IMG/VR virus record: IMGVR_UViG_3300047546_001246
Coordinates: 1 to 35,113 of that record
Source of the DNA: a virus
Length of the DNA: 35,113 bases
Reading direction: 5' to 3' (one strand)
Shown: positions 144 through 32,161 of the stretch, in pieces
Numbering within the stretch: the first letter of the stretch is position 1
Layout: every line of letters begins with the position of its first letter
Translations under genes and position numbers: made by a program
The notes under the pieces: model-generated
What the model was told of the DNA's origin: nothing
Database searches by the model: none
What the model saw: only the letters and a program-made list of their open reading frames with translations

Positions 144-340
144 AACCCCGTCAAGCTTTTCTGTACGCCGTGGCCGTTCTGACCTTGGCCCTATCCGGGT
201 GCCAAGAAGGTGCGAACAAACCGGACGAATCCGAAGCCCGCTATTGCGCCATGGTCGCGCGCTGGAACTCTGACGCCGCCGCAGGCGTGGCCCCGAAGAA
301 CCGAACCGGGTGGCCCCCGTATCAGGGGGAGTGCAAGTGA
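140..340 (+). CDS. Small predicted lipoprotein
   Basis: This 66-residue protein starts at the ATG that overlaps the upstream stop. A short basic start (MKPR) is followed by a hydrophobic stretch and the lipobox LALSGC, with the lipidated cysteine at about residue 21. The mature part is only about 45 residues and has two further cysteines (YCAM and GEC) and a GWPPYQGEC ending. The signal predicts export and lipid anchoring, probably to the outer membrane. Its place in the early operon, away from the lysis genes, argues against an outer spanin. Small phage lipoproteins can act in superinfection exclusion, but nothing here proves that. It ends in a TGATG overlap with the next gene. Confidence 0.7.
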   Translation: MKPRQAFLYAVAVLTLALSGCQEGANKPDESEARYCAMVARWNSDAAAGVAPKNRTGWPPYQGECK

Positions 341-984
341 TGACTTACTACACGACGCTGAATAAAATCCGAGAGCACTGCCCTTGCGAAAACGGATGGA
401 AAAAACTCTTGCGCAATCTTGGGAAAACTCAGGCAGACCATGAGCCGCTATCAATCATAACTATTTTGGACAGTAATGGTGTCAATGATGCGGCATGGTG
501 TTTGCGTGCAATAGACGACATCGACAAAGACGCGCGACTGTTTGCGGCGTGGTGCGCAAGACAAGTGCAGCATCTTATGACCGATCAAAGGTCTATTACG
601 GCATTAGATGTTGCCGATCGACATGCAACTGGAAATGCAACGGATGCCGAGTTGTCCGCAGCGTGGGCCGCAGCGTGGGCCGCAGCGGATGCCGCAGCGG
701 ATGCCGCAGCGTGGGCCGCAGCGTATACCGCAAATATGGCCGCAGCGAGGGCCGCAGCGAGGGCCGCAGCGAGGGACGCAGCGGTGGACGCAGAGTGGGC
801 AGCGAGGGACGCAGCGTGGGCCGCAGCGTGGGCCGCAGCTGGGGCCGCAGCGAGGGGCGCAGCGAGGGCCGCAGCGGTGGACGCAGCGTTGACCGCTGCG
901 GTAAACGCTCAAGGGGCAGAATTCAGACGTAGATTTGGGGGTGCTGACAGCGCCGCCATCGCTAAAGCGGAGGGGCAATCATGA
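340..984 (+). CDS. Alanine-repeat phage protein (possible Imm5-like)
   Basis: The 214-residue protein has two parts. Residues 1-105 are ordinary sequence (MTYYTTLNKIREHCPCENGW, then DDIDKDARLFAAWCARQVQH). Residues about 106-190 are a degenerate Ala-rich array of the type AAWAAAWAAADAAA. The chosen ATG at 340 overlaps the upstream stop and follows an AGGGGGAG ribosome-binding site at 324-331; an upstream in-frame codon at 310 lies inside the lipoprotein gene. Proteins with this layout are common in tailed phages, and similar Ala repeats occur in the Imm5 immunity family. That link is weak inference. The function is unknown. The first third is visibly more AT-rich than the repeat part. Confidence 0.7.
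   Translation: MTYYTTLNKIREHCPCENGWKKLLRNLGKTQADHEPLSIITILDSNGVNDAAWCLRAIDDIDKDARLFAAWCARQVQHLMTDQRSITALDVADRHATGNATDAELSAAWAAAWAAADAAADAAAWAAAYTANMAAARAAARAAARDAAVDAEWAARDAAWAAAWAAAGAAARGAARAAAVDAALTAAVNAQGAEFRRRFGGADSAAIAKAEGQS
655..900 (+). repeat. Degenerate GCAGCG-based tandem array
   Basis: The DNA repeats units built on GCAGCGTGGGCC, GCAGCGAGGGCC and GCAGCGGATGCC, 12 to 15 nt long, about 17 to 20 times. In the gene's frame they code A-A-W, A-A-R and A-A-D triplets. The same array is free of stops in the two other forward frames and in at least one reverse frame, which gives GRS, PQRG and CGPR repeats. These are by-products of the unit sequence. An array like this is expected to change length by slippage or recombination. 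Confidence 0.8.
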
Positions 985-8784: not shown

Positions 8785-11640
8785 ATGACTACACTACACA
8801 TCGACCTCGAAACTTTTTCTGCTGCCGACTTGCCCAAGTGCGGGCTGGATAACTACGCCACCGATCCGACCACGGGCGTGCATTGCATGGCCTTTGCGTT
8901 TGATGATGAAAGTCCGTTTCTTTACGCTCCCACGCCCGGAACCGGGCTGAACCACAAGGTTGTTGAGCACGTGCGCAACGGCGGCGAAGTGGTCGCCCAC
9001 AACGCGGCCTTCGAACTGGCAATCTGGAACAAGGTCTGCGTGCCCAAGTACGGTTGGCCTATCCTCTCGCCCAAACAAATGCGATGCACCATGGCCCAAG
9101 CCTACGCCATGAGCTTGCCCGGCGCGTTGGAGAATGCGGCCAAAGCGCTTGGCATCACGCAGCAAAAAGACATGGCCGGCAGCCGCATCATGATGCAGTT
9201 GGCCAAGCCTAAAGCCGATGGCTCGTTCTGGAAACCAGAGGACGCGCCCGACAAGTTCAAGCGCCTGTACGACTATTGCAAGCAGGACGTGGAGGTCGAG
9301 CGCGAACTGGATCGGCGAATGATGCAGCTCTCGGACAAAGAGCAGCGCGTGTGGGTGCTCGATCAGATCATCAACCAGCGCGGGATCCGCGTCGATCTAC
9401 CCGCCATCGACAACGCCATCGCCATGGTGGAGATCGAGAAGGCGCGGCTCGACAAGGAAATGCTGCGCGTCACCGGCGGCGCGGTTGGCAAGTGCACCGA
9501 AGTCCAACTCCTGATCAAGTGGATCCGTACCCAAGGTGTGGAGCTCAAAGGCTTGGCCAAGGCGGACGTGCTCGACGCCTTGAAGATTGAGGACATGCCT
9601 TCCGTTGTCCGTAAGGCGTTACTGCTGCGCCAAGAGGCGGCCAAGTCGAGCACCGCCAAGCTCATCGCCATGAAGAACCGCGCCAGCCGGGATGGCCGTG
9701 TGCGTGGTTGCTTCCAGTACCACGGCGCATCGACTGGCCGCTGGGCGCATCGTGGCATTCAACCCGGCAACCTTCCGCGCCCGCGCAAGTTGACCAAGGA
9801 TGACGACGAGAACGTGCGCCTGATCCTGCACATCAATGAGTTGATCGCCCGCAATCAGCACCAACTCCTTGACATGATCTACGGCCCGACCATGGACGCC
9901 ATGGCCGACAGCATCCGAGGCATGATCATCGCAAGCCCTGGGCACGAGCTGGTGGCCATGGACTTTAGCGCTATTGAGGCGCGCGTGTTGGCGTGGCTGG
10001 CGGGCGAAGAAAAGGTGCTCGACATCTTCCGCACTCACGGCAAGATTTACGAACACGCGGCCAGCGGCATCTACCGCAAGGACATCCGCGAGGTCACCAA
10101 GGCGGAGCGCCAAATCGGCAAGGTGGCGTGTTTTGGCCCCCATACTCAAGTGCTAACCAATAACGGGATAAAGAGTATGATCGCGGTTACACAGCGGGAT
10201 TTGCTGTGGGACGGGGTGGAATGGGTCCAGCATGAAGGAGTGGTATGCCAGGGCAGCAAGCAAGTAATAAGCGTGGCCGGGTTGGAGGTAACTCCGGATC
10301 ATTTAATCAGAACGAATCAAACTTGGACGCGGGCGCGGGAACTCGCTTCAAGCGAAAGTATCCTCCGCCAAGCGCTGGAGACAGGTTCGGAGAACTTACC
10401 GTGCTTGGGATCGAGCGGCACAAGTATGGCGCGTGTCATCAGAACATGGTTCGCGTGCAATGTTCCTGTCAGGCTCCGCCGCATCTGGTCCTGGATTACA
10501 ACTTGCGTAAAGGGCGAAGCACTCGGTGCAACGTATGCGCCAAGAGGCAAGCGGGGCATTGGCGCAAAAATTTTTGGGCGTATGCAGACGTCGTTCCGGA
10601 CGACGGCCACAGGCGCAGACTTCTCAACCGCATCTCCGCGTGCATCAACAGGTGCCACAACCCCAACGACTCCGGATATGTCCATTATGGGGGCCGAGGC
10701 GTGTTTGTATACGAGCCCTGGCGCAAGAATAGACGGGAATTTCTGGCCCATATCGTCACGCTCGCGGGTTGGGATCAGCCGTCTCTTGAACTTGACCGCA
10801 TCGATGTTGATGGGGGCTACGCCCCCGGCAACCTTCGGTTTATCGGCCGAGCGGAAAACGCGGCGAACAAACGCCGAGTCGGCGCACTCCAGAAGCGAAT
10901 CCAGGAATTGGAGGCCTGTTTACGACGTTGTGAATGCGGGGCCGCGTCACCGATTCACGGTGATGACATCGAGAGGTCCGCTTCTTGTACATAACTGTCT
11001 TGCGCTGGGCTATGGCGGCGGTGTGGGCGCGTTCCAGAGCATGGCGCGTGTGTATGGCGTCAAGGTCGACGACACATTGGCCGACGAGATCAAGCGCGCT
11101 TGGCGCGAGAGCCACGCGAAGATCGTTCGGTATTGGTACGACCTGGAAAAAGCAGCGATCAACGCGGTCGAGCTAGGCGTCGTTTGCAAGGCCGGGCCCA
11201 TCGGGCGGCAAGTGGTCTTCAAGAAGTCCGGATCGTTCTTGTGGTGCCGTCTGCCGAGTGGCCGCGTGCTCTGCTACCCGTACCCCAGCGTCAAATCGAT
11301 CACGACGCCGTGGGGCGAAGACAAATCGGCGCTGCATTTCTGGAGCGTGAACGGCGTCACCAAGAAATGGGAAGAGACCAAGACTTACGGCGGGTCGCTG
11401 TCGGAGAACATCACCCAGGCGGTGGCGCGCGACCTGTTAGCGGAAGCCATGCTGCGGCTGCACGACGCCGGGTATCCGGTGGTCATGCACGTACACGATG
11501 AGGTTGTCACAGAGATCGCCGAGGACATTGGCGACGAAGTCATTACGGAGATCGAGGGGATCGTGTCCGTGGTTCCAGATTGGGCCACGGGGTTGCCACT
11601 CTCCGCCGAAGGCTGGCGGGGCTTTCGATACAGGAAATGA
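8785..11640 (+). CDS. Family A DNA polymerase precursor with intein
   Basis: The 951-residue precursor splices to about 662 residues, a normal size for phage PolA-type replicases. The 3'-5' exonuclease domain shows ExoI (D7-L-E9), ExoII (VAHNAAFEL, N73/F76) and ExoIII (Y164-CKQ-D168). The polymerase domain has motif A (MDFSAIEARV, D393), motif B split by the intein (RQIGKVA at 442-448, then CLALGYGGG at 738-746) and motif C (H904-D905-E906). After splicing, R442 and K446 align with E. coli Pol I R754 and K758, the Tyr of LGYG with Y766, and a Leu falls at the F762 position. It copies the phage genome. Precursor without splicing should be inactive because the O-helix is broken. The next small gene begins in its stop (ATGACCATG). 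Confidence 0.95.
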   Translation: MTTLHIDLETFSAADLPKCGLDNYATDPTTGVHCMAFAFDDESPFLYAPTPGTGLNHKVVEHVRNGGEVVAHNAAFELAIWNKVCVPKYGWPILSPKQMRCTMAQAYAMSLPGALENAAKALGITQQKDMAGSRIMMQLAKPKADGSFWKPEDAPDKFKRLYDYCKQDVEVERELDRRMMQLSDKEQRVWVLDQIINQRGIRVDLPAIDNAIAMVEIEKARLDKEMLRVTGGAVGKCTEVQLLIKWIRTQGVELKGLAKADVLDALKIEDMPSVVRKALLLRQEAAKSSTAKLIAMKNRASRDGRVRGCFQYHGASTGRWAHRGIQPGNLPRPRKLTKDDDENVRLILHINELIARNQHQLLDMIYGPTMDAMADSIRGMIIASPGHELVAMDFSAIEARVLAWLAGEEKVLDIFRTHGKIYEHAASGIYRKDIREVTKAERQIGKVACFGPHTQVLTNNGIKSMIAVTQRDLLWDGVEWVQHEGVVCQGSKQVISVAGLEVTPDHLIRTNQTWTRARELASSESILRQALETGSENLPCLGSSGTSMARVIRTWFACNVPVRLRRIWSWITTCVKGEALGATYAPRGKRGIGAKIFGRMQTSFRTTATGADFSTASPRASTGATTPTTPDMSIMGAEACLYTSPGARIDGNFWPISSRSRVGISRLLNLTASMLMGATPPATFGLSAERKTRRTNAESAHSRSESRNWRPVYDVVNAGPRHRFTVMTSRGPLLVHNCLALGYGGGVGAFQSMARVYGVKVDDTLADEIKRAWRESHAKIVRYWYDLEKAAINAVELGVVCKAGPIGRQVVFKKSGSFLWCRLPSGRVLCYPYPSVKSITTPWGEDKSALHFWSVNGVTKKWEETKTYGGSLSENITQAVARDLLAEAMLRLHDAGYPVVMHVHDEVVTEIAEDIGDEVITEIEGIVSVVPDWATGLPLSAEGWRGFRYRK
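10235..10240 (+). promoter_or_regulatory. Internal ribosome-binding site for nested endonuclease
   Basis: AAGGAG lies 4 nt before ATG 10245, inside the coding sequence of the intein. It is stronger than the site before the polymerase start itself and sets the start of the nested endonuclease gene. Confidence 0.75.
10245..10994 (+). CDS. HNH homing endonuclease nested out of frame in the intein
   Basis: A 249-residue protein in a different frame from the polymerase, wholly inside the intein. Residues 44-55 (AGDRFGELTVLG) begin the conserved part. C73, C75, C95 and C98 form a CxC...CxxC zinc-ribbon pattern. The HNH core has YVHYGGRGVFVYEPW (144-159), LELDRIDVDGGYAPGNLRFI (181-200) and ENAANKR (204-210), typical of phage HNH endonucleases. 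A possible coiled coil (GALQKRIQELEACLRR) follows. Residues 1-43 overlap intein block B and look unconserved, so a TTG at 10323 is an alternative start. AAGGAG precedes the ATG. The TAA (10992-10994) lies inside the intein's CAT AAC. It probably cuts intein-less polymerase alleles at the insertion site; that target is inferred. Confidence 0.9.
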   Translation: MPGQQASNKRGRVGGNSGSFNQNESNLDAGAGTRFKRKYPPPSAGDRFGELTVLGIERHKYGACHQNMVRVQCSCQAPPHLVLDYNLRKGRSTRCNVCAKRQAGHWRKNFWAYADVVPDDGHRRRLLNRISACINRCHNPNDSGYVHYGGRGVFVYEPWRKNRREFLAHIVTLAGWDQPSLELDRIDVDGGYAPGNLRFIGRAENAANKRRVGALQKRIQELEACLRRCECGAASPIHGDDIERSASCT

Positions 11641-14457: not shown

Positions 14458-15570
14458 ATGGAACTCAGCGAACGGAACATCAAAGCGGCCATGCCTGGGG
14501 ACGTGCTGCGCGACGCCACGATCAAGGGGCTGCACCTACGCGTGACCGCTTCCGGCAAATCCTTCTTGCTCTACTACCGGACCAAGGCCGGGCAGGAGCG
14601 CCGTCCCAAGCTGGGCGAATACGGCAGCATCACTTTGGCGCAGGCCCGCAAGGTGGCGCAGGAGTTGTTGACTGAGGTGGCGGCGGGGCGCGACCCGTCT
14701 CAGGCCCGCGCCGACGCCAGGGCTGAACCCACGGTGACGGATCTGTGGAGCGAATACTGGAAGCGCCACGCGAGCCGGATCAAAAGCGGCAGCACCTATG
14801 CCCGCCAATGGCGGATCCACGTCGAGCCAAGGTTTGGCCGGATGAAAGCGCGTGAAGTGACCTACGCCATGATCGCGGACATGCACGAAGCCATGGTCGA
14901 GACGCCCGCTGAAGCCAATCGCGTGTTGGCGTTCTTGTCGGGGATGTTCAACTTTGGCCGTCGGCCGTTGAAGTGGGTCTCAGAGAACCCGGTCGAAGGC
15001 GTCAAACGCTACCCCGAAGTCAAGCGCCGGCGCTACATGAAAGGCGAAGAGGCGGCCCGTATTGCGGAAGTGCTGGACGCCAGCGCCAAGGACAGCCCCG
15101 AGTCGGTGGCGTTTCTCTACCTACTCATCCTCACAGGGGCGCGCCGTGGCGAGATCGCCAACGCCAAGTGGGAGTGGCTACGCGGCAACGTGATCCATCT
15201 GCCGGACTCCAAGACCGGCGAGAAGCAAGTCTATCTGCCACCCGCGGCGCTCGACGTGCTCGACCGACTGCCCCGCACCAGCGGAACCATCACAGGCATT
15301 CTGACGCCGCAAAAGCTTTGGGAGCGGGTGCGCCGTGAGGCCGGATGCCCCGATCTGCGCATGCACGATTTGCGGCACTCGTTCGCCTCGGCGGCGCTGT
15401 CGGCGGGTCTATCGCTGTCGCAAATCGGCGAGTTGCTGGGTCACGCATCGACCCAGACCACCAAGCGTTACGCCCACCTAGTCGACGAGGTGGCCACAGC
15501 CGCAGCCACCGCAACGGCGGATCAGATCCTTGGCCAAATAAAAAAGGCCCGGGAAGAGACCCGAGCCTAA
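14458..15570 (+). CDS. int: Tyrosine integrase (P4-like)
   Basis: A 370-residue site-specific recombinase. The N-terminal arm-binding domain (about 1-85) has the DUF4102-type features TIKGLHLRVTASGKSFLLYY and RPKLGEYGSITLAQAR. A SAM-like core-binding domain follows (about 95-180). The catalytic domain shows Arg I in TGARRGEI (R229), the HxxR box H303-DL-R306 with H307, LGH329, and the nucleophile Y338 in TTKRYAHL. GGAG at 14446 precedes ATG 14458. It recombines attP with the 3' end of a host tRNA-Asn. The gene is on the plus strand and converges with the late genes; its 3' end contains the late transcript terminator. Confidence 0.95.
   Translation: MELSERNIKAAMPGDVLRDATIKGLHLRVTASGKSFLLYYRTKAGQERRPKLGEYGSITLAQARKVAQELLTEVAAGRDPSQARADARAEPTVTDLWSEYWKRHASRIKSGSTYARQWRIHVEPRFGRMKAREVTYAMIADMHEAMVETPAEANRVLAFLSGMFNFGRRPLKWVSENPVEGVKRYPEVKRRRYMKGEEAARIAEVLDASAKDSPESVAFLYLLILTGARRGEIANAKWEWLRGNVIHLPDSKTGEKQVYLPPAALDVLDRLPRTSGTITGILTPQKLWERVRREAGCPDLRMHDLRHSFASAALSAGLSLSQIGELLGHASTQTTKRYAHLVDEVATAAATATADQILGQIKKAREETRA
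15540..15567 (-). terminator. Late-transcript terminator inside int 3' end
   Basis: On the minus strand GGCTCGGG TCTCTT CCCGGGCC forms an 8-bp stem (one G-U pair) followed directly by TTTTTT. It ends the minus-strand late operon after the holin gene, and its sequence also encodes the last codons of the integrase. Confidence 0.85.
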
Positions 15571-17389: not shown

Positions 17390-19753
17390 TTAGTTGGAAA
17401 GCCTAAACCAGTTCGCAGCGCCACCAGACAAGGCGGACAGACCATTGATTTGAACCGTGACGCACGCCAGGACTTTGGTTATCGCGCCGTAGTTAGGGAT
17501 GGTGACGGAATTGAAGTTTGTTGCGAGCAAGTTGATGATCGCGCCAGACCGGCTAAGGTTAAAGGTCGGCGTGGCCGTGAACACTGGGACGGTTGACGCC
17601 GCGTATCTGCTGTCAACAACTTCGGACGTTTGCTGAAGGAAGTTAGAGATAACGCCTTTGACATCCCAGTACGTCGGACGCCCGAAGCCGTTTACAACAC
17701 CGCTACCATACGGCGACAGAAACACTTTGCAATCAAACGCGCATTCACCAAACACCAAACCGGCGGCGGTCATCGACTTCAATACCACTGACATATCAAG
17801 CACGCATCCGCGGTATGCGACAGATAGCGCGTCCGGAAGCAGTGTCAGTGAAGCAAACGTGAACGTGGTACCACTTAGGTTTGCGGCAAGTGACCGCTCA
17901 AGCACAGAACCTCGACTGTCAATCCCAGACTGCTGCGCCGAATTGGAAATTACGTAGTATTGCTCGCGCCTGGAATAATTCCCGTACACATTCAAAATAG
18001 GCGATACGGTGACGGCAGAGTTCGCCCAGTTTCCGGTTACTGTGACGGTGCTGTAACTACCGTTAATTTTGACCATGCCAAAATCAACATCGCTACGTTG
18101 AGACAACACGTCTTGGGACGAGTTGCCCTGTATGACCCACGTTGATGGATTTGATCCACCAACCGCCACGGTGTCGTAGGTCAAATCGAAATGGCACTTC
18201 CTCGTGCCAATGTCACCGTTTATATTGTCTTCCAAATAATTGCCGGAAATTGTTCCGGCAAGGGTGCTAGTTGCGGTAACGAAAACGCCGCCACCCTCAT
18301 ACAGATTGTTTGTCACGCGCAGCGTATTGACTGCATAAACATCAGTGCCGTTTATCGTGATCCCGCCTACGCAGTCCTCGCACTGGTTGCTGTCAAAAAC
18401 AACGTTGAAAGCGTTTTTCGCCATGATTATGTACTGCGATACCAGCGAAAAAACACAAGATCTGACAAACAACGATTGGATGTAACCGTTTGGAAACCCG
18501 GTCTTTGCGCGGCTAGACGTAAAGACCCTGTTTAACCCTTTAAAGTGGCACCGCTCAACAATCAGGTTGTAGATGTGATCGCAGTCAAAAACGCCGTCTG
18601 CGGCAGTCCCGATAAAATTTATTCCGCTAACGAAAACCTTGCCAGTGAATGGGTTTGTAGCAAGAGTTTGGTTTGCCGCCCATGACGCGGACGTAAACGG
18701 GGCCAGTGTAGCGTCGATCTTTACCGTAGCGCCATCACCCGTGATATAGAAAGCAGTGTCTGCGGCTAAGTTCTGATCAGGAATAGCTACAAAAGACGCG
18801 AGTCTGTAGGTTGATCCCGGACCCCCCAGATAGATCGACTTGCCCGCCGCCAAAGCTGCCGTAAAAGCGGGGCCATCATCGGTTACCCCGTCGCCCTTTG
18901 CACCGAAATCCATGACGCTTACAATCTCCCGCGCTTTATCGCGTACAGTGCGCGTCACTGCGCCCGTGCCTGCCTGGAGAAACGAAGAGCTGGCGCTGTC
19001 GGTGTACCCTTGCGGCAGCCCTTGCATATAGCGCACTTTGATGTTGTTCGTGCCCAATGGCGGCGCGCTCGTAAACGTAAGCGCCGTCCCGCCCGTCCAC
19101 GTGTAGTCGACCCCCGGACGCTGATCCACGCCACCGATCGAAATGTCCAGGCTGTACAACGCGCCAGGATTGGCGGACAAAGTAAAAACGGTTTGAACGC
19201 CGTTGCCGCTGAAAATATCGCAGCCGGACGTGCCATAGGCCACGATGGTGGCGAGTGTGGTGGGGTCGACGTTTTGCAAACCGGACGCGGTCTCATTCCA
19301 ACCAATCAGCTTATTGCCGGCCGGAGTGGGCAGCGAAGTGGATGCAGTCCCGGCGGGAGTGTTCGGCGAAAGCTGCAGCGCGCGACCAGCCACTTCGCTT
19401 ATCTGCTGCACTTCCATTGTCAACTGATCAAGCGCCCGTTCATGGCTGGCGGCGGGGAACGGATCGTTCTCGACGTAATGAATGAGCTGGGTCAGCGGGA
19501 CGTTGCGAAGGACGCTGAGCCGCTGGTCGCTGGTTGGCGCAGTGACGCACGTCACCGTGCCGCCCCCCGACACGCCTGCGCCCGTGACCGTGTAATCGGT
19601 GGTCAGCGCCAAGGTCGTCACCACGCCGCTGCTGATCTGTGTCCGAAGTACAGTCAGGTGCGTGTTGTCGAGAAAATAAAACGGCACCGTGAACGCGGTG
19701 GTCGTACCGTTACCGGTGTAGTCTGCTCTGGAAGTTGTCGTGCTGACCGTCAT
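17390..19753 (-). CDS. Tailspike with T7 fibre-like N-terminus and beta-helix
   Basis: A 787-residue protein. Residues 5-115 resemble the tail-attachment domain of T7 gp17-like fibres (RADYTGNGTTTAFTVPFYFL, LIHYVENDPFPAASHERALD), followed by helical EVQQISEVAGRALQLSP. Residues about 172-245 repeat the same fold (FSGNGVQTVFTLSANPGALY, DYTWTGGTALTF). From about 275, VMDFGAKGDGVTDDGPAF opens a pectate-lyase-type right-handed beta-helix to about 640, and the rest is a trimer or receptor domain. It should bind and perhaps degrade surface polysaccharide. AGAGGACGCC precedes the ATG. Confidence 0.88.
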   Translation of the reverse strand: MTVSTTTSRADYTGNGTTTAFTVPFYFLDNTHLTVLRTQISSGVVTTLALTTDYTVTGAGVSGGGTVTCVTAPTSDQRLSVLRNVPLTQLIHYVENDPFPAASHERALDQLTMEVQQISEVAGRALQLSPNTPAGTASTSLPTPAGNKLIGWNETASGLQNVDPTTLATIVAYGTSGCDIFSGNGVQTVFTLSANPGALYSLDISIGGVDQRPGVDYTWTGGTALTFTSAPPLGTNNIKVRYMQGLPQGYTDSASSSFLQAGTGAVTRTVRDKAREIVSVMDFGAKGDGVTDDGPAFTAALAAGKSIYLGGPGSTYRLASFVAIPDQNLAADTAFYITGDGATVKIDATLAPFTSASWAANQTLATNPFTGKVFVSGINFIGTAADGVFDCDHIYNLIVERCHFKGLNRVFTSSRAKTGFPNGYIQSLFVRSCVFSLVSQYIIMAKNAFNVVFDSNQCEDCVGGITINGTDVYAVNTLRVTNNLYEGGGVFVTATSTLAGTISGNYLEDNINGDIGTRKCHFDLTYDTVAVGGSNPSTWVIQGNSSQDVLSQRSDVDFGMVKINGSYSTVTVTGNWANSAVTVSPILNVYGNYSRREQYYVISNSAQQSGIDSRGSVLERSLAANLSGTTFTFASLTLLPDALSVAYRGCVLDMSVVLKSMTAAGLVFGECAFDCKVFLSPYGSGVVNGFGRPTYWDVKGVISNFLQQTSEVVDSRYAASTVPVFTATPTFNLSRSGAIINLLATNFNSVTIPNYGAITKVLACVTVQINGLSALSGGAANWFRLSN

Positions 19754-26304: not shown

Positions 26305-28373
26305 CCGCCGTCCTGTGTATCGAGCTGCGCCACAACCATCAGGACGTTGGAAGGCAACGGATCGCTCTGCGTCCACGACACTTGGCCTTCCAACTCGTAA
26401 CTGCCGTCCCACGCCCACCGCTTGTCGCCAGTGTACAACGCAACGGGGTTGTCCATGAGGTCTGCGCTGCTGCGCCAGGGTTCCGGGAACGCCGCGCCAC
26501 TTGTCGACTGGACACTGAGACCAACGGATTGGAAGAACCGAAAGATGGCGCGGTGGATGCGCTTGATCTTGCCTTGCGACGTGCCATCGGCCGCGCCGGC
26601 TTCAATCCGCATCGTTTTGCCCGTGCTGCTGTAGCCAAGCCCAATTTGCACTTTGGACGCGCTGCGCTGCAGCGTGATCGCGCCAGCGCCGCTGACAACG
26701 CAGGTTGGGTGAACTGAGCCATCCGCCAAAACGCTTACCGTCTGACCCGCAAGCCACGTCAGCCCGCTGACCGTGGTTGTCGCCGCGCCGGAGTACGTCG
26801 CGCCACAGTCTACAAAATACGCGTCCGCCTGTACGTCTCCGTCCTCCCAGAACTTCTGCATGAGTTCAACCGTTCGTACAGTTGAACCGTTGATAGATCG
26901 TTGGACTGAGAGCCACACAGCATCACGGTCAGTGCCCGGCGATGGAATGACCGCAACGCTTTCGATAATCGGCGAAGCAGTCTGTCCCGCGTCCGAGTAA
27001 CCGCCCAGCGTGTGTCGATGCCACGCGAGAACTTCTTGATCTTTGTCGTAAGAGACGCCAACAAGTTGCCCATCATTTCTGACAATCCATACGTTAGGGT
27101 AGGGAGCCGGTTGACCGGCCATCTGCTTAATTCCGCTCTTGGTCAGGTGCTCAGACACCAACGAAATGTCCGGAGCCTGGAACGTTCCGAGCGTGAATTG
27201 GTACGTCATCTCGCGCAGCTTGCGTTTGGTGCGCTGCACGAAAAGCGTGGATTTTCCCATGCGTACCGGCGGCACGTTGGTGCCCCCGTAAGACGTGGTC
27301 ATCTTGGCGGTGACGTTGGTCGGCGTCACGGCGTTTTGTTGCGTTGATGCGGCGACGACCCATTCGCCACTCGCCGTGCCAGCCAACAGACCCCATTCGT
27401 CTGTGACCATCCAATTGACGACGTTGACCTTGGTCGAGTTCAACGAAAACGAAATTGCGTTGCTGTCGACCACCACGCCATCCGCGCCGCTGGGCGCGTA
27501 GTTTTCGTAGTCGGAAGTGTTCGATCCGTCGAGGCGGCTTGGGTATTGCGCGCTGCCGGCCCAGATCAATCGGTCTTGATTGAACACCACGCAGCGCGGG
27601 TAATTGGCCGTGGCCGACGATCCTTCGACGCCATACCACACTCCCAAGCGCCACACGCTCGACGCCGTGGTGCCGCCAACCGTTGTTTGCCAGGAAACCG
27701 TGACGCTGGTCGTGGAAGCTACTGCGGTGATCGACCCCCACGCCCAACTGCTGCCGACTTTGAGCCGCAGCGTGCGGCCGATATCGTTCGACGTGAACCC
27801 GGCCCCGCCGTTAATCCCCGTCGTGCTCGACGCCGTAACGGTCGCCGAACCCGTGGTCGCGCTCGACGTGAGCGTCGTCGCCGACGTATTCAGGAGAAGG
27901 TACGGGCCATCCAAAAACGAAATTGTGTTGAGCGACCACGACAACGCGCCGGCTCGCTGAAGCTTGCGCGGCTTGTAATTGGGGTGCGCGATGTAGAGAA
28001 CGTCCGCCGATTGCGTGAACGACAGGTCCCACAGATCCGCCGCGCCGTAGGGCGTGGCCACCTCATAGGGCGTTCCGCCGCTCAGAAGCTGGCCTTCGTT
28101 GGTGTAGAAGCGCACATAGCCCGCGCCAAACTCAATCACATAGGCTTGAGTGATCGAGAACTCGAAAGGGATAAGCCGAACGGATTGGCTGCTCTTGGTG
28201 TAGGCGACGAACTTCGTGCCAGGGCGTCGGGTCAACCCGCCCTGCGCCGTCGGCACGTAGTTCAGACACGTCGAAAGCGCGTTCTTGTACCGCGCGATGT
28301 CAGATCGGCCGTAGGTGAGCGGCGACCATTCCCCGCCGTTGAAGCTGTTCTGGATCCAGGATGAACGAGGCAT
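26301..28373 (-). CDS. Tail tubular protein B (T7 gp12-like nozzle)
   Basis: A 690-residue protein beginning MPRSSWIQNSFNGGEWSPLT at the ATG inside the TGATG overlap. It has the strong nozzle-family signature FNGGEWSPLTYGRSDIARYK, LNYVPTAQGGLTRRPGTKFV and FSITQAYVIEFGAGYVRFYT. Then come beta-propeller-like repeats (PRCVVFNQDRLIWAGSAQYP, NSTKVNVVNWMVTDEWGLLA, YDKDQEVLAWHRHTLGGYSD). A Ser/Thr/Gly-rich insertion (about 166-240) looks like an Ig-like domain. It forms the distal tail tube that carries the spikes. Confidence 0.92.
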   Translation of the reverse strand: MPRSSWIQNSFNGGEWSPLTYGRSDIARYKNALSTCLNYVPTAQGGLTRRPGTKFVAYTKSSQSVRLIPFEFSITQAYVIEFGAGYVRFYTNEGQLLSGGTPYEVATPYGAADLWDLSFTQSADVLYIAHPNYKPRKLQRAGALSWSLNTISFLDGPYLLLNTSATTLTSSATTGSATVTASSTTGINGGAGFTSNDIGRTLRLKVGSSWAWGSITAVASTTSVTVSWQTTVGGTTASSVWRLGVWYGVEGSSATANYPRCVVFNQDRLIWAGSAQYPSRLDGSNTSDYENYAPSGADGVVVDSNAISFSLNSTKVNVVNWMVTDEWGLLAGTASGEWVVAASTQQNAVTPTNVTAKMTTSYGGTNVPPVRMGKSTLFVQRTKRKLREMTYQFTLGTFQAPDISLVSEHLTKSGIKQMAGQPAPYPNVWIVRNDGQLVGVSYDKDQEVLAWHRHTLGGYSDAGQTASPIIESVAVIPSPGTDRDAVWLSVQRSINGSTVRTVELMQKFWEDGDVQADAYFVDCGATYSGAATTTVSGLTWLAGQTVSVLADGSVHPTCVVSGAGAITLQRSASKVQIGLGYSSTGKTMRIEAGAADGTSQGKIKRIHRAIFRFFQSVGLSVQSTSGAAFPEPWRSSADLMDNPVALYTGDKRWAWDGSYELEGQVSWTQSDPLPSNVLMVVAQLDTQDGG

Positions 28374-29965: not shown

Positions 29966-30922
29966 TTATTTGCAGTTGATGATGACGCAGCGCTTTTCTT
30001 CCAAACGCGCACCGCCAAACGTACCTGTCACGTAAACCTGCCAGGAGTTCCGCTTGTCGGGACGACGATCGACTGACGCCTGCACATCGTTCCACATGCC
30101 GAGCGCTAAGCCGGATTTGGCGAATACAGGCACCATCCAGCGCGTGCCAGTCACATATGATCCATCGCTGTCGGCCGAGGTGAGTCCGGGGTTGATAGCG
30201 CTGTTGAAGCTGCCGCCACCCGGAATACGCTCCGAACGGATAAAGTTAAAACCCATGAAGCTGGAGATCTTGCCGTCGACCAACACGGGTTTGGTGTTGT
30301 AGTCGAGCGACACAGCCTGCGCTTCGTTCAGAAGATCGTCATGCTGTTTTGCGGTGATCACGCAGATCAACTGATCGTTGTCCACGTCAACTTCCGCCTC
30401 AAGGAGCTTCCGCTTGGCGGCGCGCAACTTGGCGATGTTCAACCCAGTGGCCGAAGCCGCGCCCGTCGTAGCTGGGACTGACTGGCTGTTGCTGTTGAAC
30501 GCGTACAAGCTGCTGGTCGACGTGGTGCCGTTCTCGCCAGTGTTGTTGGCGTTGAAGAAACCCGAGATGATCTCGTCATCGATCGCGCGACCCATCGCCC
30601 ACACACCAGCCATGGTGTAGGGACCGGACGGATCGATCAGCATACGGAGCTTGTCCTGATTGTCGATCAGGTCAGCCCAGTCGTAGTCGTTGGGGTAAAT
30701 CCAGCGCTTGTCCTGGGGCGTGCTGATCAGCGGGGTATCGCTGTGCCGCGACTGATTGCGGACAGGCGAGACGCTGCCGAACTGCTCGGCCATCGAAGCG
30801 GCCTTGCCCTGGAACGAATAGTTCATGACTGCATCGCGCAGTCGCGAGCCCTGCTGCTGCAGGAGCATCGTGATGTTTGTACTGTACTGTTGTACAAACG
30901 CCTTATTGACGTTGATGGACAC
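29966..30922 (-). CDS. Major capsid protein
   Basis: A 318-residue protein starting with GTG (ACT GTG TCC ATC), preceded by TAGGAGG. The N-terminus (VNKAFVQQYSTNITMLLQQQ, GSRLRDAVMNYSFQGKAASM) is followed by P-domain-like parts (IYPNDYDWADLIDNQDKLRM, GPYTMAGVWAMGRAIDDEII), a spine helix (LRAAKRKLLEAEVDVDNDQL) and a terminal beta region with RSERIP and RRPDKRNSW. This pattern is that of a HK97-fold capsid family common in temperate podoviruses. It lies between scaffold and decoration genes. The GTG start and the base-paired ribosome site are unusual for the most abundant virion protein. Confidence 0.93.
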   Translation of the reverse strand: MSINVNKAFVQQYSTNITMLLQQQGSRLRDAVMNYSFQGKAASMAEQFGSVSPVRNQSRHSDTPLISTPQDKRWIYPNDYDWADLIDNQDKLRMLIDPSGPYTMAGVWAMGRAIDDEIISGFFNANNTGENGTTSTSSLYAFNSNSQSVPATTGAASATGLNIAKLRAAKRKLLEAEVDVDNDQLICVITAKQHDDLLNEAQAVSLDYNTKPVLVDGKISSFMGFNFIRSERIPGGGSFNSAINPGLTSADSDGSYVTGTRWMVPVFAKSGLALGMWNDVQASVDRRPDKRNSWQVYVTGTFGGARLEEKRCVIINCK

Positions 30923-30927
30923 AGTGT

Positions 30928-31000
30928 CCTCCTACGAATAGTTGACGAAGATCGCTGCGGTTACAGGCCGCAACTCGCCTCGGCTTGTCCTCGTAGGAGG
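30928..31000 (-). promoter_or_regulatory. Capsid 5' leader: RBS within long-range hairpin
   Basis: On the minus strand CCTCCTACGA (complement of 30991-31000) can pair perfectly over 10 bp with TCGTAGGAGG (complement of 30928-30937), which contains the whole capsid ribosome-binding site. The loop is 53 nt. It could hide the site until translation, a protein or cleavage opens it. This is a sequence observation; the regulation is inferred. Confidence 0.5.
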
Positions 31001-31031
31001 GGCCCTAAAAACGTCTGTGCTGCGCGGGGCC

Positions 31032-31244
31032 TTAACTTAGGATGTCGACCGGTTTCGGTTTACGTCCGCGTGAAGACTTGTCCGCTATCTCCGCCGGTTG
31101 GTTATCCGGCGTCGACGCTTGACAAAAATTGTATAGCAGGCGTGCGATATTCACAACACCATCTGGAGAATAATCCCCGGACGGTCTTGCGATCTGCACG
31201 GCCAACTCCAGGCAACCTAGACGTATCTCGGCGTCACCGCTCAT
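31032..31244 (-). CDS. Small hypothetical protein between scaffold and capsid
   Basis: A 70-residue protein whose ATG shares a base with the scaffold stop (TGATG), with GGAGGG upstream. A helical N-terminus (MSGDAEIRLGCLELAVQIAR, DGVVNIARLLYNFCQA) is followed by a basic Pro/Lys tail (SSRGRKPKPVDIL). It may be an assembly cofactor. The family is not recognised. Confidence 0.6.
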   Translation of the reverse strand: MSGDAEIRLGCLELAVQIARPSGDYSPDGVVNIARLLYNFCQASTPDNQPAEIADKSSRGRKPKPVDILS

Positions 31245-32161
31245 CACGAGCCCTCCGGAAACGCGTAGCTGTGCAACTGCGCCATGCGGGTGCGCGCCGT
31301 CGAGTCGCCCTTCAGATACTTGTCGGTGAAGTCACGGTCTTGCATGAGCGACTGGATCTGCGCTTTCGCCTGCGCCGGGGTTAGTGCGGATCCAAAACCG
31401 GACGGCGAGTCGCTGGTGACCAAACTGTCTTCCCGCATCCCAGCGCCGACACGCTGGAGCAAGTTCATCGTGGCGCGATGCCCCAGAGCGTCAGACAGCT
31501 TGTCGATGGTGGCCGCGTCCAGGTTCAACCCACGCGCGCCGGCTTGAGCCTGCGCCAAGTTCTGAGTAAACGCCTGACCCCATTCCGACTTCAGCGCCAT
31601 GTCCTGCGCCTGGAAATCCGCTTGGCGCTGCGCCTCGGCGGCTTGGGTGCTTTGCTGGACCAGCCCGTTGTACCACCCGGCCAAAGCTTCGCCCTGCGTC
31701 TTCGTCAGCCCGAGCTCGTGGAACTTGGCCAACGACGCCTCGTGCACAGCCTTGTCGCCGCCTTGTGGAAGCTCTACCTTGTACCCATCCGGACCCGTGG
31801 GGCGGCCAAGGCGATCAAACACCGCGGCCCACTCTTTGGGATCTGCGTCGGCTTTCGGGATGACCACGGCGTTGCCGGCCTTGTCCGCGCCAAGCAGTTT
31901 TTCCAAATTGCGGTAGCCGTCCAACACCTGCCGCGGATCGTTCCAGCCTTTGTTTTGAACGTAGCCGATCGTGGTCTCGTCCGCGCCTTCCAACCAACTC
32001 GGGGCGGCGACGTTAGCCGGAGCCGCGGGCGGCGTCGTCACCTGTTGCCCGGTTGGCGCGCTTGGCGCAGCGGGAGCCGCTGACAACATTGCGCTGCTGG
32101 ATGAAACTGCGGACGGGGCTGCGCCTTGCCCACCGTCAGTGGAGGCGATCTGATCTGCCAT
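31244..32161 (-). CDS. Scaffold protein
   Basis: A 305-residue acidic, helical protein. The N-terminal 50 residues are Ala/Pro/Ser-rich and disordered. The conserved block SWLEGADETTIGYVQNKGWN, DPRQVLDGYRNLEKLLGADK and GYKVELPQGGDKAVHEASLA marks phage scaffolds of this type. It continues with long Ala/Gln helices (STQAAEAQRQADFQ, QAQAGARGLNLDA) and a basic C-terminus (RTRMAQLHSYAFPEGS) that would bind the capsid shell. Position before the major capsid gene fits. It guides procapsid assembly and then leaves. Confidence 0.85.
   Translation of the reverse strand: MADQIASTDGGQGAAPSAVSSSSAMLSAAPAAPSAPTGQQVTTPPAAPANVAAPSWLEGADETTIGYVQNKGWNDPRQVLDGYRNLEKLLGADKAGNAVVIPKADADPKEWAAVFDRLGRPTGPDGYKVELPQGGDKAVHEASLAKFHELGLTKTQGEALAGWYNGLVQQSTQAAEAQRQADFQAQDMALKSEWGQAFTQNLAQAQAGARGLNLDAATIDKLSDALGHRATMNLLQRVGAGMREDSLVTSDSPSGFGSALTPAQAKAQIQSLMQDRDFTDKYLKGDSTARTRMAQLHSYAFPEGS

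Follow-up and report, generated by a model that had tools for sequence, protein, structure and literature searches.

The window, by which we mean the whole 35,113-nucleotide stretch of the viral record IMGVR_UViG_3300047546_001246 that was analysed, carries a major capsid gene on its minus strand, preceded by a scaffold-like gene and a small open reading frame (Table 1). The scaffold-like gene scores 23.7 bits against PF05396, under the Pfam cut-off of 27.1, and also matches PHROG 3742, a family of function unknown, together with weaker protease families; the genes in this position in relatives are annotated 'capsid assembly protein'. The small ORF occupies most of the interval from scaffold to capsid, which leaves a capsid leader proper of 109 nt. 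Elsewhere in the window, a family A DNA polymerase ORF (8785-11640, plus strand) is seemingly split by an intein-like insert, the polymerase matches stopping at residue 451 and resuming at about 739-766, with PHROG 93 'endonuclease' covering residues 466-778; an HNH endonuclease ORF (10245-10994, plus strand; PHROG 374) is nested within it in another frame. An integrase with an arm DNA-binding domain is encoded at 14458-15570 (plus strand) and the phage may therefore be temperate. An ORF at 310-984 (plus strand) specifies a long Ala/Trp-rich repeat (AAWAAA, ARAAARAAA).

Table 1. Features of the scaffold-capsid region of the window.
Feature	Position	Strand	Basis
Scaffold / capsid-assembly gene	31244..32161	-	sub-threshold PF05396, position, relatives' annotation
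Scaffold-start hairpin, GCC-T-CCACT-GAC-GGTGG-G-CAA-GGC	32123..32146	-	model R2
Scaffold hairpin: U.G wobble; CAA bulge	32143/32129; 32128-32126	-	sequence
Small ORF, 70 aa, between scaffold and capsid	31032..31244	-	ORF reading
H1 5' strand, GCGG-A-CAA-GTCTT, inside small ORF	31073..31085	-	module scan
H1 3' strand, AAGGC-C-CCGC, begins in small-ORF stop codon	31024..31033	-	module scan
H2 hairpin, GGC-C-CCTC-CTAC-GAGG-A-CAA-GCC	30982..31004	-	models R1, R2
H2: CAA bulge; C.A wobble	30987-30985; 31001/30988	-	sequence
P2 5' arm (anti-Shine-Dalgarno), CCTCCTACGA	30991..31000	-	sequence; covariation
P2 3' arm, TCGTAGGAGG, holds AGGAGG (30933-30928)	30928..30937	-	sequence
Capsid GTG start codon	30920..30922	-	sequence
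Major capsid gene	29966..30922	-	Pfam PF19821, E 9e-79; PHROG 3437

A tblastn search returned 79 phage records, all below 60% identity, and a nucleotide search of phage records with 3 kb gave no match. A scan of viral contigs yielded 262 relatives; the analysis went on with the best 80, and 75 of these loci possess the capsid start and some upstream DNA (L030, L047, L062, L073 and L079 were dropped). Forty-six relatives were found among genome contigs; they include Zavarzinia and Phyllobacterium loci and an Ensifer adhaerens ST2 contig. Gene order in the relatives is for the most part conserved: portal, small gene, scaffold, small ORF, leader, capsid.

An earlier note on this DNA had described a perfect 10-bp complement placing all of AGGAGG in a stem ahead of a GTG start, with a loop of 53 nt, and had taken the downstream gene to encode the capsid. 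The description is correct to the base and the Pfam match identifies the gene as that of the major capsid protein. On the minus-strand RNA the arms CCTCCTACGA and TCGTAGGAGG, which together form the stem P2, are perfect complements; the loop runs from 30990 to 30938 (minus strand) and a 5-nt spacer separates AGGAGG from the capsid GTG. The minimum free energy fold of 31010-30900 includes P2: the energy is -39.8 kcal/mol, compared with a mean of -30.15 (sd 3.53) for shuffled sequences (z -2.73), and 2 of 200 shuffles were equally good. The plus-strand fold of the same region gave no signal (z -0.01). When the 90 nt upstream were shuffled with their composition kept, a Watson-Crick match of at least 10 bp to the ribosome-binding region arose once in 3000 trials. 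Read from the sequence, the 3' arm of P2 is followed by ACACTGTGTCC and lacks the U run of an intrinsic terminator.

Comparison between phages confirms that this pairing has been maintained. For 45 leaders with less than 85% identity to each other, this cut being the sole control for kinship in the permutation tests, the best duplex between a leader and its own ribosome-binding region has a mean energy of -17.7 kcal/mol, versus -13.9 (sd 0.38) when the partners are permuted between phages, and none of 5000 permutations was as low as the real mean. This set includes L082 and L086 and excludes L065, which has 36 nt upstream. For 41 distant leaders the corresponding values are -14.3 and -11.1 kcal/mol (sd 0.37), with none of 10,000 permutations as low; here L291 and L292 (near duplicates of earlier loci), L299, L303, L307, L330, L334-L336 and L091 were omitted, as were L082 and L086, already counted in the set of 45. 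The two arms co-vary (CTACGAG/CTCGTAG, CCACG/CGTGG, CCAAGAG/CTCTTGG, CTATGAG/CTCATAG), and leaders of type A, the class to which the window belongs, contain 23-24 distinct P2 arm pairs, with the variation lying within the loop of the alternative hairpin H2. At the four H2-loop positions of the window, a set of 31 type A leaders (23 distinct arm pairs) presents the P2 pairs C-G, A-U and U-A, and G-C at one of the positions, in a listing that leans towards pairing because the partner was drawn from the best helix. MAFFT misaligned the arms of whole type A leaders and the counts were therefore made on motif-anchored or equal-length alignments. P2 is thus kept by covariation in near and distant relatives, and the note's proposal, which a lack of conservation of the upstream complement could have overturned, survives in both sets.

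The 5' arm of P2 falls inside H2 (31004-30982), and since the inner stem and loop of H2 take up 31000-30989 the two structures are mutually exclusive. Hairpins of the general form GGC-C-(stem)-loop-(stem)-A-CAA-GCC lie upstream of nearly every near-relative capsid start, in 71 of 75 near leaders with the window included and L065 omitted. The alternative fold that the earlier note had thought possible therefore exists as a specific, conserved hairpin that excludes the stem. Among the four leaders that lack it, L042, L043 and L048 carry GGTCAAGCC and L080 has diverged. The covariance model R1, constructed from ten H2 hairpins of relatives that do not include the window, matches the window hairpin with 32 bits (E 1.1e-8), and the model R2 matches it with 28.2 bits (E 2.8e-5). 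In type B leaders (e.g. L014, L016) the arm complementary to the Shine-Dalgarno sequence is found immediately 3' of the CAA bulge, where it overlaps the outer stem, so that type B is a different platform from type A, yet the same exclusion of a P2-type helix by H2 holds. What is conserved upstream of the capsid gene is thus an element that is mutually exclusive with a helix sequestering the Shine-Dalgarno sequence. Three tandem H2 hairpins are present in L191, L192, L220, L231 and L241, which have one common sequence, and in L201 and L301; the inner stems of these copies differ within one leader.

P2 is the more stable of the two structures, by a median of 8.4 kcal/mol and by 10.9 in the window. 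When H2 was forced in the energy model, the accessibility of the Shine-Dalgarno sequence rose in 37 of 43 leaders, but the rise exceeded 0.3 in only 7, and in the window it went from 0.11 to 0.17. Because this gain is small, H2 alone does not open the site cleanly in the energy model; to be held, H2 would require a binder or kinetic trapping. The RNA switch proposed in the earlier note is therefore supported in part: the complement covaries and an exclusive fold exists, and the switch itself stays a candidate.

A simpler view is that P2 merely keeps capsid initiation low or timed, as in gene e of T4, with H2 a by-product of the P2 5' arm and with release provided by a downstream promoter or by RNA processing. 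The Shine-Dalgarno sequence is paired to the H2 segment with a median probability of 0.83 over 43 leaders, as this view would have it, and T4 e, soc, 49 and I-TevI hold the Shine-Dalgarno sequence and/or the AUG in an RNA helix (PMC3014915). In the present leaders, however, and in this they differ from T4 e and soc, the sequestering arm itself belongs to a conserved alternative hairpin, and the bulge-wobble hairpin covaries without P2 as well, in the scaffold gene and in H1. We consider plain masking unlikely.

H1 is the same bulge and wobble module with its strands exchanged, situated upstream of H2 in the capsid leader. It was found in 52 of 56 distinct leaders, in 50 of them with an A.C wobble, whereas 230 of 290 shuffled leaders contained no copy and A.C was the best once, under a score that favours A.C and G.U in real and shuffled leaders likewise. 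Scanning up to 2.6 kb per locus for strict swapped modules gave 28 distinct ones, of which 23 fall in an interval 114-145 nt ahead of the capsid start; among the remaining five, L067 and L021 have theirs near scaffold starts. The presence of two modules in most near capsid leaders and of three H2 copies in some, together with platforms that differ between subgroups, could be taken to mean that H1 and H2 form the aptamer of a small-molecule riboswitch and P2 its expression platform. However, the scaffold and tail-fibre sites described below are apparently single hairpins (as assessed by eye for the tail-fibre leaders), bulged hairpins of 24 nt are more often sites for proteins, and no Rfam family matches the window and nine loci. 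A riboswitch ranks below plain masking in our estimation.

The product of the small ORF is fast-evolving, with a conserved RLECLKLA-type helix and, in many type A relatives, a basic C-terminal tail (such as DKPRRGRP); L085, L087, L088 and L090 have no annotated small ORF. Against Pfam G1RFP it scores 17.5 bits (threshold 22.6), and 4 of 25 relatives match this family at E 0.05. A search of the PDB gave no convincing relative, the best profile match being 7ue2_A (E 0.0012), which to judge by its name is probably a designed protein. The AlphaFold model of the first 69 of the 70 residues shows two helices plus a tail of low confidence (mean pLDDT 74.5, pTM 0.50). These searches and the model neither name the product as an RNA-binding factor nor exclude it as one, and the small ORF is a candidate both for encoding such a factor and for translational coupling. 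Were coupling at work, ribosomes on the small ORF would open the leader and set the output of capsid, with the hairpins tuning the process. It speaks for coupling that the type B small ORF runs through H1 and H2 and ends shortly before the capsid start, mostly by 21-41 nt (5 nt in L038), and that H1 of the window straddles the small-ORF stop codon. In type A, however, the window included, the ORF stops before H2 and P2, so that there could be no direct opening of P2, and coupling also leaves the scaffold copy of the module unexplained. Its probability appears to us low, beneath that of a riboswitch.

That scaffold copy came to light through R1, which in relatives detects a further site some 1.1-1.5 kb ahead of the capsid gene's start, corresponding to the first codons of the scaffold gene. 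In the window it occupies +16 to +39 (codons 6-13) and scores 31.8 bits (E 3.1e-6) against R2, being one of the 21 hairpins that trained this model. Of the 62 loci with a readable scaffold ORF, 52 have a strict form of the hairpin that begins between +4 and +22, L056 and L057 being doubtful members of the 52, and the other 10 lack it; across phages the copy spans about +4 to +46. A short hairpin with a conserved bulge is thus located in the translation initiation region of the scaffold gene. It does not sequester the scaffold Shine-Dalgarno sequence, since over 48 loci its pairing with its own Shine-Dalgarno sequence is weaker than with permuted partners (-7.5 versus -8.6), which suits a docking site better than a mask that acts by itself.

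When any base was allowed at the wobble position, with the CAA or TAA bulge, three outer pairs, a C-G as first inner pair and a minimum of four inner pairs fixed, 69 distinct hairpins comprised 45 with C.A, 23 with U.G and one with C.U. The 36 distinct near hairpins of capsid leaders account for 35 C.A and the single C.U, never U.G, and the 33 from scaffold starts for 10 C.A and 23 U.G; a control region yielded 4 hairpins, in four different classes. Exchange between C.A and U.G occurs within scaffold sites, between scaffold and capsid, and in distant leaders. As the two wobbles are alike in geometry, this preference points to selection on RNA shape. In alignment A5, which combines 21 hairpins of both genes, all 147 canonical cells pair and 6 of 7 pairs show double changes, the complete pairing in A4 and A5 being partly a matter of choice because the hairpins were picked by motif and equal length. 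The covariation score of A5 is 0.654 compared with 0.137 for shuffled alignments, and 0 of 500 shuffles reach the real value. Alignments A3 and A6, which were misplaced in the stem, were kept out of the models.

A priori, the repeats might function as DNA or might simply follow from conservation of the coding sequence, and the scaffold copy and the type B leader copies do lie inside reading frames. At the scaffold, 30 loci, with the outer stem GGG, have the bulge in frame 2 and 20, with GCC or ACC, have it in frame 0, figures that count loci without deduplication. Because the bulge frame differs between loci, and between subgroups, it is the RNA and not the protein sequence that is conserved there, and compensatory changes, wobble exchange among them, are independent of the reading frame. 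Further, the exchange of C.A for U.G is meaningful only in single-stranded RNA, and the type A H2 lies outside the small ORF. An origin in DNA or coding constraint is very improbable.

The module is rare elsewhere. A strict structural scan, designed once the motif was known, covered 380,517 bases in ten genomes (the window and almost the whole of nine other phage contigs, picked from records with matches) and gave 18 matches, compared with 0-2 in ten shuffles. Seventeen of these are at scaffold starts, in capsid leaders or in a tail-fibre leader and one is elsewhere (window 26680-26701, plus strand); the scan misses sites with shorter or interrupted inner stems, for example the tail-fibre sites of L337 and L338. 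R2 matched 32 of 36 records, some of the sequences searched having also trained it, and four named phage records had no R2 match at E 0.5. In the 25 records with a tabulated capsid position, the capsid leader was matched in all 25 and the scaffold in 9, one of these being a match in G021, 1469 nt upstream, that the script had binned as 'other'; scaffold sites are under-counted because R2 lacks the GGG/CCC type. Five further R2 matches occur elsewhere in these records and include the tail-fibre site of G021. In three phages, L337, L338 and L339 (G021, G029 and G031), the leader of a tail-fibre-like gene contains the bulged hairpin, and in L337 the GGACAAG of this hairpin can be seen to be complementary to CTTGTCC adjoining the ATG. 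By eye, the three hairpins sit behind promoter-like GATAAT sequences. Inspection of the window's own tail-fibre leader by eye did not find a CAA-bulge hairpin, and a model match at 18837-18874 of the window (14.1 bits), inside the tail-fibre coding sequence, was dismissed as chance.

Further out, the strict Watson-Crick module is found in 14 of the 41 distant leaders (8 C.A, 5 U.G and 1 U-A), compared with a mean of 0.4 and at most 2 in 40 shuffled sets, and the outer stems vary (GGA/TCC, AGG/CCT, GCC/GGC, ACG/CGT, GAG/CTC, AAGG/CCTT). With E up to 10, R1 recovers the capsid leaders of no more than 5 among 50 distant loci (L082, L301, L304, L310, L316) and the scaffold start in L304. Because the distant matches are few, the module must be described as clear in the near group and patchy beyond it. 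Leaders of Pelagibacter phages and Pelagibacteraceae contigs (L083, L084, L089, L092, L093, L313-L315, L321, L322, L324) are structured, with hairpins like GAT-C-CGC..GCG-GAAA-ATC that may represent a diverged module written in other letters; they are left uncounted because the strict scan accepted none of seven (L083, L084, L092, L313, L321, L322, L324). Among the matches listed from a pattern scan of viral contigs (L094-L250), a capsid gene lies no more than 1.2 kb downstream for 73 of the 81 of type A and for 56 of the 87 of type B. The 8 type A exceptions include three contig ends; L096, L097/L147 and L138/L143 look like chance, the last pair falling inside the scaffold-like ORF of another phage. 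Chance matches should also be expected among the 31 type B exceptions, the pattern being looser.

Searches for a known counterpart were negative. None of the 4227 families of Rfam 15 reached its gathering cut-off over the window and nine loci, the five matches from a permissive Rfam search of L001, L003 and L005 were all below cut-off and outside the capsid leader, and we found no description of such an RNA element in the open-access literature. The scaffold gene of P22 is subject to post-transcriptional self-control, which resembles the control proposed for the present scaffold site. We know of no bulged hairpin operator common to scaffold and capsid in P22, and found no account of its scaffold autoregulation in the open-access literature. 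The Mu-gpT-DE motif, linked to gpT genes, is likewise a conserved RNA named after a phage head gene. It is named as Rfam RF03012 in PMC7657543, and the gathering score of this family is not reached in the window and the nine loci. The autogenous operators of T4 gp43 and gp32 are also translational operators of a dsDNA phage with RNA structure upstream of the start; theirs is self-control of replication proteins, whereas the genes here are scaffold, capsid and, in three phages, tail fibre. In MS2 a 19-nt hairpin in the replicase gene is the operator and the coat protein dimer the translational repressor (PMC12356212). The likeness is that of a short hairpin in a region of translation control and, for our element, of a putative protein binder that would link expression to assembly. 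In contrast to MS2, the phage here is a dsDNA podovirus, the bulge is a 3-nt CAA accompanied by a C.A or U.G wobble, several genes are involved, and the capsid-leader hairpin competes with a helix that hides the Shine-Dalgarno sequence. In mode of action the MS2 coat operator, the T4 gp43 and gp32 operators and the masking of T4 gene e come nearest to this proposed operator with a switchable Shine-Dalgarno helix, and neither Rfam nor the open literature supplied a counterpart.

As a whole, what was computed, namely two folds, their covariation and mutual exclusion, a module at both genes and its rarity elsewhere in ten genomes, probably reflects an RNA-made translational operator system common to the assembly genes of a podovirus family. 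Recurrence of the hairpin at the scaffold start suggests that one factor controls both head proteins via their mRNA, and the guess in the earlier note that scaffold is involved fits unexpectedly well, since the same hairpin is found there. The default fold of the capsid leader would be P2, hiding the whole Shine-Dalgarno sequence. A single RNA-binding factor, presumably a protein, would read the bulge-wobble module; it would most likely be a phage head-assembly protein or the 70-residue product, with scaffold, capsid or a host protein as further candidates. By holding H2 this factor would stop P2 from forming, leaving the capsid Shine-Dalgarno sequence freer and turning capsid translation on, and on the scaffold hairpin, near the leading edge of the ribosome, it would block or probably damp scaffold initiation. 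These directions of control are the ones that we infer for the two genes. It is possible, and we put it forward tentatively, that an assembly protein (perhaps scaffold or the 70-residue product) reads the module to turn scaffold down and capsid and some tail fibres up, as a post-transcriptional assembly clock of tailed DNA phages, retained across a very diverse group of them. To our knowledge, the ratio of scaffold to capsid and the order of their synthesis have been worked out in only a few models of tailed phages. Here a compact, strongly covarying RNA module marks the two genes in a large phage group, for the most part uncultured, and from it sites, bases and a binding factor can be predicted; if a protein binder is found, the hairpin would be a new tool of the MS2 type.
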